From positions 1 to 36,384 of the forward strand of contig CADAHF010000005.1 in NCBI GenBank assembly GCA_902787665.1: a DNA stretch of 36,384 nucleotides, read 5' to 3'. Source of the DNA: an uncultured Pseudomonadota bacterium (lineage in GTDB: Bacteria > Pseudomonadota > Alphaproteobacteria > Rs-D84). Every line of letters starts with the position of its first letter. The stretch's first letter is position 1. The notes under the pieces were generated by a model. It ran no database searches. It saw only the letters and a program-made list of their open reading frames with translations, and was not told where the DNA came from. Below are positions 7,231-27,294 of this stretch, piece after piece. Made by a program: the position numbers and the translations under genes.

Positions 7231-10200
7231 ATGATAAAAAAGATACTGCCGTTTTTATGCAGTCTGGCGCCACTTTATGCATTTGGTGATGCTGGTGATC
7301 CTGTTGATATTTCCAGTGCGTCCGTAGATTCTATATCAATCGTTTCTAGTGAGCTTAGTCCTAATCAATATGGCAATGTTTCAAACCCGGCATGGGTTGG
7401 GTTGACGACCACAAATGGCGTTAGGCTTGGTGGAAACCTTATGTTGTTGGATACTGGAATACGACAAACGCCAACGAATTCCGCCGGGGATTTATACATT
7501 TTGAATACTGTTGGTACTACTTCGTCTGGGGTGTTTGGTATTACAAGTGGTGGTGATATTTCTGTTGGTGACAGTATAAGTATTGTGTCTGGGCGTGGAT
7601 TAAAACTTAGTGCGACGGCGGGCAAGGTTGTTGATATGTCTATCGCAGGAAATGTGTTGGCAAACGGGTCTTTTTCTGTAGATGGTGCGACAAGTTTTAG
7701 TGTTACTGGAACAAAACCAGGCACAAATGGAACAATTGCGTCAGCGGATCTTTTGTCGTTAAAGGCCGGAACAATAAGTATTGCAGGAAATGTTGCTCAG
7801 TCACAGTTTGCAAATAGTGTTCTGCCAGAAAATAGAAAATTAAATATTGAGGCAACAACTGGTGCGTTGTCTGTTGGTGGGGTGTCTACATATGCGCCAA
7901 CGGCGACAATCAAAAGTGCAACAACAATAACTTCAACTGGTGCAATACAGAATTCTGTTGGCGATATGACAATTCTTTCGTCTGGCAATTTTGTTGTATC
8001 TGGTGCGGGTAATGGTGTTCAAAATACCGGTTCCAGTTTAACCATAGATACCACACAGAATAGTGGAACGGGTGCGATTAATGTTGCGGGTGTGTTAAGC
8101 AGTACAGGTGGTCATCTTAATATAACATCCAAGGGTTTATCAGCGGATTCTTTTGTTAATGCTGGTGATGCGGTGCTTAGTATTGGGGGTGCAACATCTT
8201 TTGCAAATGGTATGGATTTATCTGGGATGTCGGCAACTTCGGTAATGAGTGTCACAACAAATACTTTATCGTTGGGTACTAATAATCTTATTTCAAACAA
8301 TAAGTCATTTGTTAATTTGACGGTGTCTGGCGATGCATTAAATGCGGGAACCGTTGTAAATGGTCAGCTTGGCGGTAATTCAAATGTTTCGGCGAAATTG
8401 TTCCTTAGTGGTGTTGGTGTGTCGTTAGCTGCTGTTCAAAACTATGGCAATCTGTTGCAAATCACAAACACCACCCAAACGGCTGATGATGATATTGGTA
8501 TTATTGAAGATCTGCGTGCTGCGACAGGAACACAGACAAATATTACTGCGTATGACGAATTAACTGTTGGTGGTTCGGTTATAAATTCGGGTAATATGTC
8601 ATTGCGTGGAAAAACAGTTGATTTAGCAACGGTGACAAACACTGGTGATGGATCGGTGTTGAATGTTTTGGCAACTGCTGCTGGTGGAACGGTGCATGTC
8701 TCGGGTGTGGTTACAAATGAAAACGGAACAACAACAATTAATTCTCAAAATGCAACATTTGATGATGTTGTGAAAAATAAAAGTGGCACACTTACAATAC
8801 GTGGCGCAGGTGTTGGTGGAATTGCATTATCTGTTAATGAAATTGCTGTCGAAGGTGGCGTGTTTAACATAAATTCTTGGTCGGGCGGTGTTGAAACCAA
8901 CGCGTTGAGCGTAACTGGTGGTGTGTTGAATTTTGGTGATACTATATATAATGTTACAACAGCTGGTAATGTTAATATTGGTGGTAATGTTTATTTGGCG
9001 GGTGAATCAAATACTGGGACGCAAGATGTTCGTTTGAATGCTGTTGGTGGTAATATTAACTTTATATCTGATACTGCAATAAATATAGCTGGTGATATTA
9101 TTGCAACTGACAATACTTCCGTGCGTAATGCAACATTGGATGCACCAACTATTTCTGTAAATGCGGTGAATGTTCAAAACAAGGGGCATGTAAAGTTTGG
9201 CACAGACACGACTTCTGTATTGGATATTGTCGGTGCATTAAGTGTTACGAACAATGGTAAGGTTGATATTTATTCTGGAACGGCTGTTGCTGGGACAATT
9301 ACAGAATCCGATAATGGTTTAATTAAGATTTATGGACCATCCTTGATCGCTGATGCGGGTGCAATAAATATTGCTGATGGAATTTATTTTGACGGCAGTA
9401 CTACAAGCATTGGTATGGTTGTTGATGATTCATTAGATGCATTCACATTAAAGAATACTCAAAATAATACCGATATGACGATAGGTGGGGGTATTTCGGT
9501 TAGTGATGACAATGTGTTGGCCTTGAATTCCGCACATGATGTATTGATTTATGGTGATACAGATGTTAGTGGCGCATTGGATATTGATGCGAAAAATTCT
9601 GTGGTGTTTAATGCACCAATAACAACAAGTGGTAATGCAACAACCGCTTTGGATATTAATGCAAAATCAATATTTGTTGCGGGAATTACAAATAATGCGA
9701 CGGGTGTATTTACTGCAACAAACGGTACGTTTACAACGACTGGTGCGATTGTAAATAATGACGCTTTGTCTATATCCGCAAGTGGTAATATATCTTTGTT
9801 AGATGTCACATCAAATTCGGGAAATGTTACGATTTGGTCAGATACAGGAAATGTAATCGCAACAGGTGATGTTTCCGTGGCAGATGGAACATTTGTAATC
9901 GATGGCGATGTTGTCACATTGAATTCGTTAGAATTATTGGGGGGAACAACGACAGTATCTGCAAGTCAAAAGTTGTCAGTTGTTAATGGGTTGACTTTGT
10001 CTGGTAATTTGGTTCAAGGAAATGCGACCGATGTGGTATTGGTTGGTGGCGCGTTAAAGTTGGCGGACACAACATTGGTTGAAGCATCAAGTTTGGATAT
10101 TACATCTGGTGAATTTATTGCAAAGTCTGGGTCAACACATTATGTGATTACAGGTGCTGCTAATTTGGGCGATGCTGTAACTGTAGCGAATGGCGCAATA

Positions 10201-12519
10201 GTTGATGTTTCTGCATCATCAATCAGCGCAAATGGTGATGTTATAAGTAATGGAACGTTGTCTTTGACAACAACTGGTGTTGTATCTGGGATAAGTTTTG
10301 AAAATGTTATTAACAATGCGAATTTATCAATAGATACAAATGGTTCATTCATTGCAACATCGTTTAACAATGGCGCAAATGCAACAGCAACTATTGTCAG
10401 TGACGAGATGAATTTGACTGGTCCATCAAATATTCAAAAAGCATTAAATGTTGCAAATAATTTGTATCAAAACTATTCGGGTACACTTGTTGGGGGCGAT
10501 GTTAATATTATCAAAAATAATTATACTATTTCTGCATCTGGGGTTGATGTTGCGGGCATTAACCAATATGGTCCGTCGGTAATGACAATTAATACCAGTG
10601 ATTTAACAGTTGGTGGTGATATCAATGCGACAAATTTAACAATTGCTGCAAATCCATCGAACAATTGGTCTAATATCGCCGTGGGCGGCAATGTGTCTGG
10701 TGGAATCAAGGTTTATGGTCTTGAACATATGACGATAGGTGGTAATTATACGTTTGATGACAATAGCTTGTTGCATGTTGCAGTTTTACCATATGCCGCG
10801 GGTCCATCGTTAAATTCTACAACATATAATTATTGGGCAGATGTGTCATTAAATGATGATAATACATTGGGGCAAATAACAAATCTTGATAATAATCCAA
10901 ACAATGCGTTGGTTCATGTTGGTGGTCGCTTTATCAGTGATATTTCTACAATTACAAATGCGACAAATGGTGTTGCAATGGATACACCACAAATTGGAAT
11001 TAATCTGTATAATGTTGTTGACCAAGGTAAAGCAATTTGGTTGTTGTATGCAGAAAATGGTTTGAATGATTTGGCAGAAAAGATTCGCGGATTAAATGTG
11101 AATTTCTGTAATTCGGATGGTTCAATTTGCTTTAACTATTTTGATGCATACAGTTCGGTTGCAAATGTAAACAATAATGGCACGGAAAACGAATTACCAA
11201 TATATTTATCTGTTCGTGATTTTGATAACAATGGCATAATGGACAGTTTGTATATCGTGTTTGATTCAAGATTTGGGGGACCAGCAACACTGTTTGATAC
11301 CGAATCGGTTGTTGACCGCACAGAAGGTTCCGGTGATGGGGAAAAATCTGCGGCAAATGCGTTGGATAATATGATTGTGGGACAATTAGACAATGCTGGA
11401 TTTAACAACGATAAATTAATTGATGCAATACCAGGGGCATTTGCAGGAACTAATTTATCAGAATTAGCAAACGAATTATATAATCGTATGGAACAATATT
11501 TGGTTGACCGTAATGGTGCACCGATTACAAACATCGCGCGCTTGGTCCAGCCGCGTGAGTTAGAACAGGTTGCGGGCAGTATTGTTTTGAATGAACATAC
11601 ATCTTTCCGTGATTTCGAAGATCGTATGTTTAATGAATTTATATGGAATCGTAATCGCAGTTTGAGTAATGCATGGTTTGATGCTGACTTTGGCTTCTTC
11701 CGTCAAAATGCGACAGACGATAAAACTATAACAGGCAACAGATTCAGTTTTACTGCGGGCTTCGATTGGCAAAGTTCTAATAAAACAATATTGGGGTTAA
11801 TGGCACGAGTGTCGCATATGTCTGGTGATAATTCCGATAAAATGGATTTAAGTTATAAACCTGGTGAAACGGTTGCTGGACAGAACAAGATGAGTGTTGC
11901 AGATACAAATATTGGTGTTGGCGGGTATTTAATGCATACGCTTGGATTCAAAACACGCATTTATGGAAATGCAATGTTAGATTTACATTTGTTGGATGTT
12001 TCACGTGAACAGAACTTTGTTGATAATATAAGCGGGGTTGGTTCAGATGTCAGTTTGATTTCGGAATGGGGATTGATGCACGATTGGTTGAATCAATATA
12101 TTGTTGGAAATCTTTATACTCGTTTTGGATATAACCTTGGGTTTGATGTCAAAGAAAAATCTGCTGGTGCTGAATATATGCGTTTGAAATCTGATGGATA
12201 CTTTATTTTGACGCCGGGGTATTCGTTGACTGCACAAAAGCGCATTTACACATCGCCGTGGTTCCAGTTGCGCCCATATGCAACAATCGGTATAGAATAC
12301 GATTTGTTGGGGTCGCCAGATGTGGCAAAGTTCAAATTTGCACCCGCTGACAAATATAGCGAATATGATATAGATGTTAATCCGTTGTGGGCAAACATTG
12401 GTGGTGGTATAGAAATGTTATCTGCAAATGGTGCCCAGGTCGGATTTGATTATCGGTACCAATATAATAACTATATCCAAATACATAATTTGAAATTATC
12501 TGGATCGTTGAGATTTTAA
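7231..12519 (+). CDS. Large type Va autotransporter (beta-helix passenger plus beta-barrel)
   Basis: A 1762-aa surface protein. Residues 1-19 form a signal peptide ending before DAGD. The passenger (about 20-1300) is a long run of short imperfect repeats rich in Gly, Asn, Thr, Ser and Val with recurring patterns such as SVGG, NAGT, ISAxG and GNVN, typical of a right-handed beta-helix adhesin. Near residue 1330 a DFDNNGIMD stretch matches a DxDxNGxxD calcium-loop pattern. A helical linker (about 1390-1470) leads to a C-terminal autotransporter barrel of about 290 residues with alternating hydrophobic strands and a terminal ...LSGSLRF; the final Phe suits recognition by the BAM complex. The function of the passenger (adhesion, aggregation or other) cannot be told from sequence. 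No protease motif was seen. The gene is monocistronic with its own promoter and terminator. Confidence 0.9.
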
Positions 12520-19331: not shown

Positions 19332-19850
19332 ATGCAAGAAAATAAACCCATTATGATAGTTGGCCTGGGCAATCCAGGACCGGAATATGCGCGCACACGA
19401 CACAATGTTGGATTTATGGCTGTGGATTATTTGGCGGGTGAAAATGCCAAATGGAAAAACGAACACAACGCATTAACATACCGCACAGAAACAGACGGTT
19501 GCCGCATAATGTTTGTTAAACCGACAACATTTATGAACCTGTCGGGTGATGCGGTTGGTGCGATTGCGCGTTTTTATAAAATTCCAACTGAAAACATAAT
19601 TGTGATTCACGATGATATGGATTTAAAGGTCGGCGATGTTCGGGAAAAGGTTGGCGGATCCAGTGCGGGTCACAATGGTATAAAATCGATTGATGCGGCG
19701 GTTGGTGCAGAATATAAACGCATAAGAATCGGTATTGGACATCCGCGTGATGCTGGGTTGCAAATGGACGGTGCCGATTGGGTTCTTGGGCGGTTCAGTG
19801 ACGATGAATTGTCCAAAATTGAATCGGCAATAAAAACGATTAAATTTTAG
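19332..19850 (+). CDS. pth: Peptidyl-tRNA hydrolase
   Basis: Pth cleaves peptidyl-tRNA released from ribosomes, recycling tRNA. The 172-aa product keeps the catalytic core: VGLGNPGPEYARTRHNVGF (Asn and catalytic His), FVKPTTFMNLSGDAV, VIHDDMDLKVG (Asp) and GGSSAGHNGIKSI (Asn). It is about 20 residues shorter than E. coli Pth, ending soon after GRFSDDELSKIESAI, so the C-terminal helix is abbreviated. ATG 19332 is chosen because the family begins a few residues before the IVGLGNPG strand; the frame is open back to 19296. Its stop codon overlaps the stop codon of the convergent 497-aa gene by three bases, and no terminator lies between them. Confidence 0.95.
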   Translation: MQENKPIMIVGLGNPGPEYARTRHNVGFMAVDYLAGENAKWKNEHNALTYRTETDGCRIMFVKPTTFMNLSGDAVGAIARFYKIPTENIIVIHDDMDLKVGDVREKVGGSSAGHNGIKSIDAAVGAEYKRIRIGIGHPRDAGLQMDGADWVLGRFSDDELSKIESAIKTIKF

Positions 19851-21340
19851 TTACACGTATCGCCTGCGCACAATATACTGTCTATCATTGTTGGTGACAT
19901 TTGGAACAGGGCGTCGTCTTTTTTTGATATTGATGTGGACTTAGTGTTATCTTTCAGGGTCAGCGGACTTGCCCAGTATTGGCAATCGCGCAAACGTGAT
20001 TTGCCGGTGTCGATGGTTGTTGCCTTTAACGGACATTTTGTCATAATCAATTTTGCACAATAATTGCCAGTTATACAATCTGACAGAGGTTGTATGTCTG
20101 TAATGGTTTTATCATTACTAGCCAGTGTATTGATTACCGTCGTATTATCAGTATTCAGTGTGTATATGTGCGTGTTACGAGAATAAGAGCCATAAGGTTT
20201 ATTCTGATTGTCTGAATTAGCATCAAAGTCAGCAATATACTTACCAGGGTTAGTATTATCCTGATCTATAACATCACATGTAGTCCCATCACAGTTGTGT
20301 GAAAAGTATTCATTACCGTCATTAGATTCTTTTAATTTGAGAGCCCAATCAGAAATACTAACACATTTTAGTGGTTTTATTGATACTGTTATAGTGTCAG
20401 ATGTATCCATGTTGGTAACAGTAATGCTGGTGATATTTAATCCTTCGTCAAAGTGAGTCATGAATCGAAATGGTTTAGTTGTATCTAATTTCGTAAGTGT
20501 ATCGTTGCTGTCATAATAGTATATGGTACCATCACCACATTGATCACAATACAATTTTTTTGAATCAAAAGTTCCATCGTTTTGTATATGGGGCATTGCA
20601 TTAATGAAACAAGATTGAACATATGTGCATATGTTTGGATAGTATACGTTTTGATTGTCAGCAGCAATATGTGATAAACCCAAATCACAGTTTTTGAAAC
20701 AACTGGTTATACCTTGTGCCGAATAATTGCCACTATTTGTTGCGTTTGGGTGCGATGATGGACATCGTGTACATTTTTCCACGTTGTTATCTATTTCATA
20801 ATAGTATCCAGATGCGCACTTGGCACATTCGTTGTTCTGCCAGACATAGAATTTATTGTCGTCGGTTTTGTTGCACCATGTTTGACTGTAACATTCAACA
20901 GGCAATTCGTTGGGGTAATAAAAATTGTTGCCGTTACATGTTTTATAACAACTTTCTTTGCCCGCATTGTTGCCAGCGGCTGATAGCGGATACTGTGTTT
21001 GTGTTTCAACACTGCAACTTTTACAAACAGTTGAACCGTTTTCCGTTATTGTATAATAACCAGCACCACAAGTTGCGGCTGGAACACAAGAATTGCCTGC
21101 GCCTGTTCCACCAGACATAACATATCCATTTTTACATGATGTGTATTTTTTAGTCGCTGGGTCGCATACATACGGCGATGTTTCATCAGCAAATGAAGCG
21201 GTTGCGGCAAATATGATGAACAAAACAGGGCCGATACGGGAAAAAGCGATTTTATAACCACATCGGCTCGTTACACTCGCCACCCCTTCAATTAATGAAG
21301 GGGATTTGTTGCTATTAAAGATTTTGTTCAATAATTTCAT
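19847..21340 (-). CDS. Cys-rich exported protein of unknown function
   Basis: A 497-aa protein I cannot assign. Residues 36-51 (IGPVLFIIFAATASFA) look like a signal-peptide core, but the stretch before it is unusually long (35 residues) and contains an imperfect palindrome-encoded segment. The mature N-terminal half (about 55-285) has more than 20 Cys in repeated short modules, such as CDPATKKYTSC, CGAGYY, CKSC, CYKTC, CAKCASGYYYE and CTRCPSSHPNA, reminiscent of growth-factor-receptor/furin-like Cys-rich repeats. The C-terminal half is Asp/Asn/Thr-rich with fewer Cys and ends GDTCN. It is the last gene of a four-gene minus-strand series and its ATG directly abuts the stop of the preceding lipoprotein gene. 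Secreted or surface exposed, probably disulfide-stabilised. Confidence 0.75.
   Translation of the reverse strand: MKLLNKIFNSNKSPSLIEGVASVTSRCGYKIAFSRIGPVLFIIFAATASFADETSPYVCDPATKKYTSCKNGYVMSGGTGAGNSCVPAATCGAGYYTITENGSTVCKSCSVETQTQYPLSAAGNNAGKESCYKTCNGNNFYYPNELPVECYSQTWCNKTDDNKFYVWQNNECAKCASGYYYEIDNNVEKCTRCPSSHPNATNSGNYSAQGITSCFKNCDLGLSHIAADNQNVYYPNICTYVQSCFINAMPHIQNDGTFDSKKLYCDQCGDGTIYYYDSNDTLTKLDTTKPFRFMTHFDEGLNITSITVTNMDTSDTITVSIKPLKCVSISDWALKLKESNDGNEYFSHNCDGTTCDVIDQDNTNPGKYIADFDANSDNQNKPYGSYSRNTHIYTLNTDNTTVINTLASNDKTITDIQPLSDCITGNYCAKLIMTKCPLKATTIDTGKSRLRDCQYWASPLTLKDNTKSTSISKKDDALFQMSPTMIDSILCAGDTCN
21283..21303 (-). repeat. Palindromic element inside the start of the 497-aa gene
   Basis: CCCCTTCA and TGAAGGGG form an 8-bp perfect inverted repeat with an ATTAA centre. 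On the coding strand it encodes residues 13-20 (SPSLIEGV). It splits a KIF-type N-terminus like that of the neighbouring genes from the hydrophobic signal core, as if a small palindromic repeat had inserted in frame. Confidence 0.6.
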
Positions 21341-22553: not shown

Positions 22554-25500
22554 TCAAGGTTGTTGTTCCTGATACTTTATCATCCATTGTTGCGGATTTT
22601 GACATTCCGAGAAACCATCCCATGTGCCATAGGTTCCAGTGCCATCATTATCCGGTTGCCATACACATGACACAGTTTCGTTCTTGGGATTAACAACTGT
22701 TGTATCAATTACATTTGTAACAAATTCTTCAGATGTTGGCGAAGAATAATAGAATTTATATCCGTCATTTCCTGCTTTAATCAGAACGTCAACCAGTGTG
22801 CCATGGCATGTCAAATCGGAACCTTCCATTTCCATAGAAACGGTACCACCATCACATATCAAAACATGCCAACGTGGAGGTGAGGCTATATCTTGATATG
22901 GTTCGGTTATAACCAAACTGTTAGTACCATCTTTGACACAGAAATCCACCTGTTTGTTAAACGGCTGATCAAGTGTTACAGAAACAGATTTACCGCTTGC
23001 ACAGCAATTACCGCCAGAATCACGCACATTACAACACACACATGGAATAACGATACTGCTGGAACCAGTCGGGAAAATACGATCGTTACCATTGCATGTT
23101 GTTCTGTCTTGCCCAGATGGTGCATCATAGTATAAGCTATTTGTTGTGCACATTTCAGTTGTTTTTGTACATTTTCCGTTTGTCATCTGGTATCCAACCG
23201 GACAAGATGTGTCAAAGCAACTTTTGCTTTCTTGTTCTGTGCCGGTATTAACCGCAAACCAATAAAGCAGAGATTGGTCCTGGTCATCAGCAAGTTTTTT
23301 GATATAGTTGTGTTCGCTTTGTTCTTCTGTATAGGTGATGCCATCGATTTCGGAACGTGTTGCAACAAATTTTGTTTCCAGGTCGGTTGTTGGTTCAAGT
23401 TCGCAATTACCCCAAATGCGTTCCGCCAAACGACATGCGATGCAATCATCGGTCAAATCGTCGTTTTTTGTACACTTGTCGGCACAAATATCATAAACGC
23501 AATTTAAATTTGTACCTATTTGTTTGCAGCTTTCTTCGTTGGCTTTATCATTTGTAAATATTTGCGGGTCGCCTGGGTACATTACACTATAGAAATTCAA
23601 AGTTGCATCTGTCGCATCGCTTAAGCCTAAATGTGTCGTGATAATGTCGTTAAGTTGTTTGTCGTTTTCTGCAACTTTAACAGTTTTTATACAATCAACG
23701 ACATCTTGCCAGCACGCATCACGATTGATAATCGTTTTGCGGTTGACCGATGTTGATATGTTTTCACACAAACCAAAATTCCCAGATGTCGATTTGCACA
23801 ACTGTATTATACAGGCCTGACCAATCTGGCGACAGGTTTGCATAAGTGTTTCATATGTCGTAGCAATCTGAATTCCAGTTATACCAGATTCCCATGTGTC
23901 ACCATCATCATTTGTTGTGTTCAACAATGCCGTGCAAGATTTTATAACATCGTCACACAGTGCGTTCGCGGTTTTATTGGCAGTAACACCAAATGTTGAT
24001 AGTGCGCGCGAATCAAATTCCTTGATTGATTCTGTGGCTTCAGATAAACACTGGGCGGTTAAGATTGTGCAACTTTGACGAACATCATCAAGTTTTTTAT
24101 CCTGGGCCAATTTGATTTGTGCTAACGCATCTTCAACAAACGCGTCCCATACATCATCGGCAATAACCTGACAATGCTCGGTCGCTGGTTCCAAAAATTT
24201 CTTTTTGGAATCCAGGTATGTTACAAATGCAGAATTTTTACCGGTAGATGTCCATGTTGAACCATCAGATGGTCGGGTAAGCAATGTTTCCAGGTTGCTT
24301 AATTTCGGTGTTAAAAACACTTCGCCAGTTGATGGGTCGATGTATTGTCCAGTTATGTCCAAACATTTACCCAGGTCTTCGCCACACACAGTTGAATCGG
24401 TTAACATGTCCAACATTTTCTTTTTGCAAGTTAAAATATCATCAGAATTACGTTTTTGATAAATATCCAAACGCGACATATCAAGCAGGGCGCTGCCTTC
24501 TAATACCTTGGATCGTGTCTGAGCTGTTTGTGCAGAATATGTTTTTGCAACTGCGTTACAATCTTGTTCAATTAATGCCTGGTATCCGCCCTCAGCCAGC
24601 GAAATGTCAGATTCTGCACAAACCTCAGCCGCCATTTGACGACAAACTGGTAATGCAGCAGAATAAAGCGCCGTGCCAGTTTTGGTTGTGGTGGATGCAC
24701 CGCGCAAAGAATCGACATTGTCGAACGCCGCATCCATGTCCAATGACCACGACAACACATTTAAATCGCTGTTGAAGTTGCTGGTATCAAAGCTGGTGTT
24801 TAATTTTTTGGCGATAGCATCAAGAGTTTTCTTGGAATCGGTATTATCCTTGGTAGACAGATATGCCGTTTCCCCCTCAGTCGCGACGGATAACGCCGCA
24901 GCATCTTCTTTTTCCATGTTAACCGTTAAAAGCCGTTGGTTGAAATCAAGCATTTTGTCTTCAACCTTGTCCAATTGCTTTTTGATAGAGTCAAATTCAT
25001 TTATACGGGATGAACATGCACAACGTTTTAATTGAGCATCCTTGTTCGCACAGAATTCATCCATACAGTCAAAGAATACAGTTTTGCACTTGCTGTAATT
25101 TCGGTTCAATATGTCGTCGCGTGTCACAGCGCCAGTTGTAGCAGCACGAGATATTGCGCGTGAACTTGATGGGTTTTTTCCAATTGTCTTGGCGGTGCGG
25201 GTTGTGGTTTTTTGTGTGACAGTGCGTGTTGTTGGCGTTGTCGTGCGTGATGCCGCCGATCCAACCATAGCGCGCGAAACAACATTGCCTGTATTGCGTG
25301 AAGTTGCGCCCGTTGTACGTTCTGTAACATTTTGTGTACGATTTTGTGTGGTTGTACCACGTCCACGAACATTTTGGGTTGTTTGTGTGACAGTTGCAGT
25401 GTTGCCACGCGGTGTAGTGACAACGGCGGACTCATTCGTCTTTTGACGGCTTGTTGTTGTTGGGGTATTTGATGATACACGACGAATTGCGGCGCGCGTA

Positions 25501-25583
25501 GCGTCGCCGACAGTATCTGCGTGCGCGCCGTATATCCCAACGAACGCAAGGCACACAGCTAAAATCAGCCCAAACTTTTTCAT
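22554..25583 (-). CDS. Large exported Cys-rich protein with basic Thr/Arg segment
   Basis: A 1009-aa protein of unknown function. The signal peptide spans residues 1-22 (ending GAHA/DTVG). Residues 30-160 are low complexity, rich in Thr, Arg, Ser and Val (TTTRQKT-like and RTVTQKTTTRT-like runs), strongly basic and probably disordered. From about residue 165 a Cys-rich helical region starts (CKTVFFDCMDEFCANK, RCACSS), with a predicted coiled coil (IKKQLDKVEDKMLDFNQRL). Further CxxxC pairs recur to about residue 760 (CDDVIKSC, CRQIGQACIIQLC, CVYDICADKC). The C-terminal part has spaced Cys modules (CPVGYQ, CVCCNV) and a Trp-containing end (CVWQPDND, NPQQWMIKYQ). ATG 25583 gives the signal peptide. 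It heads a four-gene series and has its own promoter. Disulfide-rich cell-envelope protein by inference. Confidence 0.75.
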   Translation of the reverse strand: MKKFGLILAVCLAFVGIYGAHADTVGDATRAAIRRVSSNTPTTTSRQKTNESAVVTTPRGNTATVTQTTQNVRGRGTTTQNRTQNVTERTTGATSRNTGNVVSRAMVGSAASRTTTPTTRTVTQKTTTRTAKTIGKNPSSSRAISRAATTGAVTRDDILNRNYSKCKTVFFDCMDEFCANKDAQLKRCACSSRINEFDSIKKQLDKVEDKMLDFNQRLLTVNMEKEDAAALSVATEGETAYLSTKDNTDSKKTLDAIAKKLNTSFDTSNFNSDLNVLSWSLDMDAAFDNVDSLRGASTTTKTGTALYSAALPVCRQMAAEVCAESDISLAEGGYQALIEQDCNAVAKTYSAQTAQTRSKVLEGSALLDMSRLDIYQKRNSDDILTCKKKMLDMLTDSTVCGEDLGKCLDITGQYIDPSTGEVFLTPKLSNLETLLTRPSDGSTWTSTGKNSAFVTYLDSKKKFLEPATEHCQVIADDVWDAFVEDALAQIKLAQDKKLDDVRQSCTILTAQCLSEATESIKEFDSRALSTFGVTANKTANALCDDVIKSCTALLNTTNDDGDTWESGITGIQIATTYETLMQTCRQIGQACIIQLCKSTSGNFGLCENISTSVNRKTIINRDACWQDVVDCIKTVKVAENDKQLNDIITTHLGLSDATDATLNFYSVMYPGDPQIFTNDKANEESCKQIGTNLNCVYDICADKCTKNDDLTDDCIACRLAERIWGNCELEPTTDLETKFVATRSEIDGITYTEEQSEHNYIKKLADDQDQSLLYWFAVNTGTEQESKSCFDTSCPVGYQMTNGKCTKTTEMCTTNSLYYDAPSGQDRTTCNGNDRIFPTGSSSIVIPCVCCNVRDSGGNCCASGKSVSVTLDQPFNKQVDFCVKDGTNSLVITEPYQDIASPPRWHVLICDGGTVSMEMEGSDLTCHGTLVDVLIKAGNDGYKFYYSSPTSEEFVTNVIDTTVVNPKNETVSCVWQPDNDGTGTYGTWDGFSECQNPQQWMIKYQEQQP

Positions 25584-25596
25584 TCTCTGTGATTGG

Positions 25597-25624
25597 ATTT
25601 TAGCAAATTTAAATCGTCTAGCAA
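25597..25624 (-). promoter_or_regulatory. Promoter of the Cys-rich/lipoprotein series
   Basis: On the minus strand TTGCTA (25624-25619) and TAAAAT (25602-25597) are 16 bases apart, 4 and 5 matches to consensus. Transcription would begin close to the ATG at 25583, giving a leader of only a few bases. Confidence 0.5.
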
Positions 25625-25639
25625 GCACAAAATGAGAGT

Positions 25640-25664: not shown

Positions 25665-25749
25665 TGGTGCGACCAGGGGGACTTGAACCCCCAAGGATTT
25701 CTCCACAGCATCCTTAGTGCTGCGCGTATACCAATTCCGCCATGGTCGC
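25665..25749 (-). tRNA. tRNA-Leu, anticodon AAG
   Basis: An 85-base class II tRNA with encoded CCA. The acceptor stem GCGACCA pairs with TGGTCGC and the discriminator is A73, as in Leu tRNAs. The D-arm is GCG/CGC with an AATTGGTA-type loop. The anticodon stem CAGCA/TGCTG holds the loop CTAAGGA, so the anticodon is AAG (25715-25713), reading CUU. The long variable arm has a GGA/TCC stem. The T-arm is GGGGG/CCCCC with loop TTCAAGT. All stems are fully paired, arguing for a functional gene. A34 is unusual for bacterial Leu tRNAs, which normally carry GAG, UAG, CAG, UAA or CAA. Confidence 0.95.
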
Positions 25750-25830: not shown

Positions 25831-25863
25831 ATCATGGGTAATACATCGGGGGGGATACAGATT

Positions 25864-27294
25864 ATGAATTTACATAAGTATATTTGGTTAAATTGCTTAG
25901 TTTTGCTTGGTTTTACAGGTGTTGCGAATGCTGCAGGAACATATTATACGGGTGCGTCATATCAACCAGCACAATATCGTTACGGACAAAGCGGGTCTTA
26001 TGTGAATTCGGGGACGTATAATCGTGCGCCTTCTGGGGAAACGCCAAGTTATGTGTCTAGTGCGCGATATAACAATTATTCGCAATCAAATGCACAACAA
26101 AATTCACGCGTAGCAACGACAAAAACTAACCAAACGGTTTCATCGAAAAAAGGTTTCTTTGTAAATGGTGGTCTTTCACATGAATTTGGTATGTGGAAAA
26201 TTGATATGGTAAATACTGCAAACTCTGTGTTGAAATACAACAATTTGGAATGGAATGTGTTTGATTTAAATGCGGGCTATGTCTTTGATTTAGGCCGAAC
26301 AAAAATGCAAGTTGATGCCGGGTTTAAGTACGGTATGCAATGGGGCGAATCAAGTATGACCGATGACGATATTTCAAATGGTGGATATGGTGTACAGGAG
26401 TATACAAAAAGTAACGGTGATGTGATTGGTACCGTCATAGGACATGGTTTGTCAATTGGCACCAGTCAAGATGGCAATATGCTTGGTTTTAATGTTGGTT
26501 TGGGGTTAACGGATGTTTGGAAATGGGGTAATATCAAAATAACACCATCAATTGGGTATCGTTACTTCAAACATAAACTAGAAACAAAAGATAATTATGG
26601 TATGCTTATGGATACCGTTTTGGGTGGTTGTGATTCTTCGGGTGGGGAATCAATATGTGGGACGGTTTTGATGTTCTATACCAGTGCAAACGGCAGTTCC
26701 CCTAATGCTATTTTAGCGTCAAACGGTCGTGTTCAAATTCCAGGTGGTGAATTGTATGTTGGGGCTTCGGATACATATTATTTTGAACAGCTTGGAACAA
26801 GTCATTCATACGAAACAGAATGGTCGGGACCATATATTGCGTTGGATATGTTGTACGACATAAATCAAAACAACAGTATCAATGGTCGTATCGAACTTGG
26901 TTTTCCAGGTTATACATCAACCGGTGATCAACCATATCGTTGGGATTGGACCCATCCAAAAAGTGTTGAAGATTCCGCTGGTATGTTTTCTGCGTTTCAT
27001 TTGGGATTGGCGGCAAATTGGAAAACAGCGATTACAAACAGTGTCGCATTGTCATTGGGTGTAACATATGATTATTACACGGTCAGTGGTGCTGATACAG
27101 AAACGTATTTAAACGAAAAATATTATAATCAACTGGCAAATTTAGATTCTCGGACAGAACAAGAACAGTTGAAAATGAATTATTTGGATAGTTTAAGACA
27201 AGATTGTGGTGGGTGGGTGTGTAAATCAAGCAAAGAAATAGATTCTGTATACAAATCAATGGGCGTTCGGGCTGGAATTGATGTTCGATTCTGA
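25864..27294 (+). CDS. Predicted outer-membrane beta-barrel protein
   Basis: A 476-aa exported protein. The signal peptide covers residues 1-24 (ending GVANA/AGTYY). Residues 25-100 are a Tyr/Ser/Asn/Gln-rich, probably disordered linker. From about residue 100 the protein alternates aromatic-flanked strands with polar turns (FFVNGGLSHEF, VFDLNAGYVFDLG, MLGFNVGLGLTDVW, ITPSIGYRYFKHK, GPYIALDMLYDIN, INGRIELGF, VALSLGVTYDYYTV) and ends MGVRAGIDVRF with the terminal Phe typical of BAM substrates. Strand arrangement faintly recalls 10-stranded barrels such as omptins, but the omptin catalytic residues are not evident, so I give no enzyme call. ATG 25864 is preceded by a G-rich site; an in-frame ATG at 25834 would place extra polar residues before the signal peptide. 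First of three same-strand exported genes. Confidence 0.75.
   Translation: MNLHKYIWLNCLVLLGFTGVANAAGTYYTGASYQPAQYRYGQSGSYVNSGTYNRAPSGETPSYVSSARYNNYSQSNAQQNSRVATTKTNQTVSSKKGFFVNGGLSHEFGMWKIDMVNTANSVLKYNNLEWNVFDLNAGYVFDLGRTKMQVDAGFKYGMQWGESSMTDDDISNGGYGVQEYTKSNGDVIGTVIGHGLSIGTSQDGNMLGFNVGLGLTDVWKWGNIKITPSIGYRYFKHKLETKDNYGMLMDTVLGGCDSSGGESICGTVLMFYTSANGSSPNAILASNGRVQIPGGELYVGASDTYYFEQLGTSHSYETEWSGPYIALDMLYDINQNNSINGRIELGFPGYTSTGDQPYRWDWTHPKSVEDSAGMFSAFHLGLAANWKTAITNSVALSLGVTYDYYTVSGADTETYLNEKYYNQLANLDSRTEQEQLKMNYLDSLRQDCGGWVCKSSKEIDSVYKSMGVRAGIDVRF

Follow-up and report, generated by a model that had tools for sequence, protein, structure and literature searches.

The only tRNA gene in the window (the whole 36,384-nucleotide stretch of DNA analysed here) encodes a tRNA-Leu with the anticodon AAG, and it stands where relatives of the host have an ordinary tRNA-Leu(GAG) gene. 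Judging from the gene, its relatives and their loops, it is likely that GAG was changed to AAG in place, with a rewriting of the anticodon loop, and that TadA deaminates A34, giving a tRNA-Leu(IAG) for CUU and CUC. The switch is an independent, recurrent alphaproteobacterial case of a known phenomenon.

The tRNA-Leu(AAG) gene and the tRNA set of the host

ARAGORN finds a single tRNA in the window, a tRNA-Leu(aag) (Table 1) with the sequence GCGACCATGGCGGAATTGGTATACGCGCAGCACTAAGGATGCTGTGGAGAAATCCTTGGGGGTTCAAGTCCCCCTGGTCGCACCA. It has a 7-bp acceptor stem, pairing in every stem, a long variable arm, an anticodon stem of CAGCA/TGCTG with the loop CTAAGGA, A73 and a genomic CCA. Its score against Rfam RF00005 is 55.6 bits, with a gathering score of 29. 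A preliminary description of this DNA had called the gene a complete class II tRNA-Leu with AAG, A73 and CCA, and ARAGORN, the sequence and RF00005 all confirm it.

Table 1. The tRNA-Leu(AAG) gene and the genes beside it, in window coordinates
Feature	Position	Strand	Basis
tRNA-Leu(AAG) gene, class II, CCA encoded	25665..25749	-	ARAGORN; sequence; RF00005
Anticodon AAG, positions 34–36	25713..25715	-	ARAGORN, anticodon at gene position 35; sequence
tRNA positions 31–39, ACUAAGGAU	25710..25718	-	Comparison with tRNA-Arg(ACG), ACUACGGAU
1024-aa ORF directly downstream of the tRNA, no Pfam family, synteny marker	22554..25628	-	
Pom-like outer membrane protein gene, divergent, upstream of the tRNA, synteny marker	25834..27294	+	PF17251

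PF17251 is the Protochlamydia outer membrane protein family, and the Pom-like gene is conserved across the family. Besides the 1024-aa ORF, the window ORFs without a Pfam match are those at 7231–12519 (1762 aa) and 19847–21340 (497 aa).

The host genome is 793 kb in 29 contigs and is 92% complete. The nearest sequences to its 16S rRNA (L306:9763–11266), at ca. 81%, are from Alphaproteobacteria (Ensifer, Sinorhizobium and Shinella), among plasmid-borne copies, and the relatives of the regulator adjoining tadA are mostly from the same class. The host is probably an alphaproteobacterium. Its genus, of which over 150 species have been sampled, has genomes of 0.6–1.1 Mb and fits the gut genus Enterousia of the order Rs-D84 (PMC12306168), a name that we infer. 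The family and genus codes used below (f1, f6, f141, g263 and so on) are those of the search tool.

There are 45 tRNA genes in the host genome, each in a single copy, and they form a complete isoacceptor set. The leucine anticodons are AAG, CAG, UAG, UAA and CAA. The preliminary description had raised the absence of tRNA-Leu(GAG) from the whole genome as a point to check, and a second, normal copy of it as a finding that would tell against its reading. No tRNA-Leu(GAG) was found in this 92% complete genome, in which the other 44 tRNAs make up a full isoacceptor set; AAG takes its place. Apart from tRNA-Leu(AAG), the only host tRNA with A34 is tRNA-Arg(ACG), and the remaining four-codon boxes retain G34.

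Distribution of the AAG and GAG forms

At least 81 of the 88 sampled genomes of the genus have a tRNA-Leu with AAG, which rules out a sequencing error as its source. The remaining seven comprise G020, which has GAG, and six that were not resolved, three of these being incomplete. In a wider sample, GAG was found in three further congeners (G152, G178 and G215) and also in sister genera. Family f6, of the same order, has AAG in G095 and G097 and GAG in G092.

A scan of 385 genomes of the class gave one other good AAG case, G516 of family f141; this and the other class counts are lower bounds, because the pattern demands a purine where the host tRNA has T and so misses the host gene itself. Pattern counts also miss divergent tRNAs. 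Family f141 stands far off within the class. Its 61 genomes include 10 with AAG, 44 with GAG and none with both, and four genera (g263, g305, g308 and g323) each hold genomes of the two kinds. No genome among those examined has AAG and GAG together. The exact A34 pattern was found at 10 places across 84,980 species genomes, a count from which near records may be omitted, and ARAGORN called none of these a tRNA. A tRNA-Leu(AAG)-like sequence in G525 (L242, family f23), with the loop TTAAGGG and no encoded CCA, is doubtful – it may be degenerate or unrelated.

In-place replacement

The two neighbours of the tRNA, the Pom-like outer membrane protein gene and the 1024-aa ORF, are the same whether a species has AAG or GAG. 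The AAG gene is an in-place conversion of the ordinary tRNA-Leu(GAG) orthologue, since tRNA-Leu(GAG) occupies this locus in four congeners and in the sister genera. That the gene instead came by horizontal transfer, or is a surplus copy that is not expressed, is very improbable. The CAGCA/TGCTG arm is shared with f6, the nearest GAG relatives having CTACC instead, and short-arm recombination is possible, but the locus is that of GAG in relatives, GAG is absent, and the gene is intact in more than 80 species.

Within the host family, a tree of the two flanking proteins that was constrained to one AAG clade was 18.5 lnL better (p-AU 0.85), so a single conversion, ancestral to the AAG species, suffices; two changes, as in a quick flanking-gene tree, were dropped for the same reason. 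The flanking-protein tree of f141 has seven changes of state between GAG and AAG, at least six of which well-supported branches make unavoidable, and most of the genera with both kinds keep the tRNA gene at one locus. Recombination of the tRNA gene between f141 species could lower the true number of mutations.

The anticodon loop

Positions 31–39 are ACTAAGGAT in 77 of the 78 AAG tRNAs, and they are the same in f1, f6 and f141; the stem at 27–30 varies. In all three lineages the AAG form brings A31 and C32 on one side and A38 and U39 on the other (77 of 77), giving ACUAAGGAU, while all 81 GAG tRNAs have U32 with U or G at 38 and none has C32/A38. The lone exception among the AAG tRNAs is that of G525 (gttaagggc, with U32/G38).

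The host tRNA-Arg(ACG) reads ACUACGGAU at 31–39 (ACTACGGAT in DNA). The AAG tRNAs match it at eight of these nine positions, and the mismatch is base 35, the middle of the anticodon. This convergence of the loops is the part that adds something beyond the known tRNA-Leu(IAG). The tRNA-Arg(ACG) of the host carries C32, G37 and A38; host TadA must therefore accept G37, and base 35 alone is new. The loop CUAAGGA fits the consensus YUAMGRA established with S. pyogenes TadA (PMC11472039), and positions 32, 37 and 38 are published determinants of TadA (PMC11066159).

In family f4, tRNA-Leu(UAG) at three loci (L156, L158 and L159) has C32/A38 in the loop CTTAGGA, without A34; U32/U38 is usual for this tRNA. 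The 32–38 pair tunes decoding, and C32/A38 might accordingly serve to adjust a weaker codon pairing of A34 or I34 on the ribosome, with no part in recognition by TadA, whether or not deamination occurs. The f4 tRNAs are consistent with this. It is nonetheless quite unlikely, as the identity with a TadA substrate extends to the whole of 31–39 and positions 32 and 38 matter for TadA (PMC11066159).

The course of events that we favour begins in the ancestor of most of the genus, where G34 would have become A34 together with a rewriting of the anticodon arm – the 31–39 pair to A-U, U32 to C and U38 to A – that left the loop a near copy of that of the resident tRNA-Arg(ACG). TadA would then most likely deaminate A34, and the resulting tRNA-Leu(IAG) would be the only tRNA dedicated to CUU and CUC, with the UAG and CAG tRNAs taking CUA and CUG. 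Deamination by TadA is proposed because the loop copies a TadA substrate and because 32, 37 and 38 matter for the enzyme (PMC11066159).

TadA

The host has an intact tadA gene (L046:2003–2455) with HAE and PCAMC (PCxxC) motifs. The best relatives of its product are TadA structures, and the NCBIfam TadA model is its best match, although at 102 bits it falls short of the 150 bits set for an equivalog. The preliminary description had named the TadA residues that contact the anticodon loop as a point to inspect. In an alignment across the order that included one GAG congener, no residue distinguished the AAG species of the family from its GAG species. Unusual TadA positions (the Leu preceding HAE and others) were rejected as the cause of a substrate expansion, being common to GAG relatives. 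Either TadA would already be tolerant, or the decisive change would be one that this comparison does not show.

A second deaminase, L047:2594–3040, was weighed as a dedicated leucine editor and set aside, because it resembles a nucleoside/guanine deaminase and is missing from many AAG congeners. This cytidine/guanine-type gene adjoins tRNA-Pro(CGG) and is found in part of the genus only.

In published work, E. coli TadA partly converts to inosine (ca. 15%) an AAG tRNA with the loop of tRNA-Arg2, from which it differs at 35; the tested changes at 32, 37 or 38 abolish this editing, and an AAG loop with G37 is not edited (PMC11066159). The loops edited by S. pyogenes TadA fit YUAMGRA, and this enzyme converts its own tRNA-Leu(AAG) fully; E. 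coli TadA cannot edit the tRNA-Leu(AAG) of Streptococcus (PMC11472039).

A wider proposal is made tentatively, and it may well fail: that there were many switches between GAG and AAG at one locus in Alphaproteobacteria, each AAG form reaching the same TadA-substrate loop, and that TadA, with G37 in its native tRNA-Arg, may be pre-adapted to A35, changes in the tRNA alone recruiting an unchanged enzyme.

Codon usage

The rarity of CUC in the host genome was read at the window and at loci L277 and L304–L308. In ca. 39,000 codons of the host there are 10 CUC and 409 CUU, with CUC making up 10 of 3205 leucine codons; its share outside ribosomal regions is 10/419. CUC is nearly extinct throughout the host family, whichever of the two anticodons a species has, although other C-ending codons are common. 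The composition-corrected deficits of CUC overlap, with means of ca. −2.6 logits in AAG species and ca. −2.3 logits in GAG species. In the AAG congeners, the share of CUC is slightly raised in ribosomal-protein regions, 49/411 compared to 55/1148 elsewhere (CMH odds ratio 1.57, p 0.046), while in the same regions C-ending codons fall in the Arg, Pro, Ala, Thr and Gly boxes.

The AAG species of f141 use CUC much as their GAG relatives do. In f6, CUU and CUC together are 62% of leucine codons in the AAG genome G095 (L315 and L316), compared to 26% in the GAG genome G092, a shift that resembles the recoding in Lactobacillales. Raised use of CUU and CUC, a correlate and no requirement, is thus seen in G095 and not in the host.

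These data bear on whether A34 stays unmodified, CUC having become rare enough in the family that the loss of G34 cost little, with A34 reading CUU and the few CUC codons being read weakly by A34 or through superwobble of tRNA-Leu(UAG). We consider this unlikely. It agrees with the 10/419 share in the host and with the strong deficit of CUC in GAG relatives too, by which the loss probably came before the switch. E. coli TadA leaves the AAG loop with G37 unedited and unmodified A34 pairs mostly with U (PMC11066159), and some bacterial A34 tRNAs are unmodified (PMC8266599). However, an unmodified A34 would leave unexplained the coordinated change to C32, A38 and A31-U39 in at least three lineages. 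The composition-corrected deficit is about equal in AAG and GAG species, the CUC share does not drop in ribosomal-protein regions, the AAG species of f6 and f141 use CUC freely, and G37 is native to the tRNA-Arg(ACG) of the host. The rarity of CUC was rejected as proof of an unmodified A34, GAG relatives being poor in CUC too. The likely order of events is that CUC was lost first and the anticodon switched after.

Codon use favours I34 where CUC is common (f141 and G095), and in the host genus it favours neither state of A34. Several observations count against deamination: the near absence of CUC in the genus, unexpected for an efficient CUC reader; the lack of a TadA residue that tracks AAG within the family, along with the inability of E. 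coli TadA to edit the Streptococcus tRNA; and the occurrence of C32/A38 without A34 in the three f4 tRNAs and of U32/G38 in the AAG sequence of G525. The preliminary description had offered the two alternatives, action of TadA on tRNA-Leu or an unmodified A34. Both are sound, and TadA is the better supported. Its further suggestion, a reading of CUU, CUC and CUA, held only in part: CUA is redundant since tRNA-Leu(UAG) is present, and the gain of CUC through I34 would be small in the host genus because this codon is almost unused (10, against 409 CUU).

Comparison with known systems

The same description had regarded AAG as abnormal in bacteria. It is rare but not unprecedented, as it is known in Oenococcus oeni, Streptococcus and other Lactobacillales. 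In O. oeni and Streptococcus, tRNA-Leu(AAG)/IAG has been shown biochemically, and in several families of Lactobacillales GAG has been replaced by AAG (PMC13249217, PMC11472039, PMC8266599). AAG or inosine in bacterial leucine tRNAs has been reported as almost confined to Bacilli (PMC13249217). No alphaproteobacterial tRNA-Leu(AAG) was found in the literature searched, which was open-licence papers.

The alphaproteobacterial switches are natural and repeated, with AAG and GAG species in one genus that otherwise share the locus, and such paired species let one ask what makes a TadA substrate and whether TadA must change. They also bear on what drove the spread of the inosine that later marks eukaryotes. 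The host genus, with CUC nearly extinct, tests whether the loss of a codon opens the way to a switch.

As in the tRNA-Leu(IAG) of Lactobacillales, AAG replaces GAG one for one and never occurs with it, UAG and CAG are kept, the loop fits YUAMGRA, and TadA is the candidate editor. Unlike that system, the present one belongs to another class and has a separate origin, and its editing is predicted; CUC is nearly unused in the host genus and not raised (though f6 G095 does show a rise), and the local tRNA-Arg(ACG) has G37. Compared to tRNA-Arg(ACG)/ICG, the canonical TadA substrate, the host gene is the same at 31–39 but for base 35, which is A, and has a leucine tRNA body with a long variable arm. 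The alphaproteobacterial tRNA-Leu(GAG) shares its locus and tRNA body, and differs in having G34, U32, U38 and another 31–39 pair.
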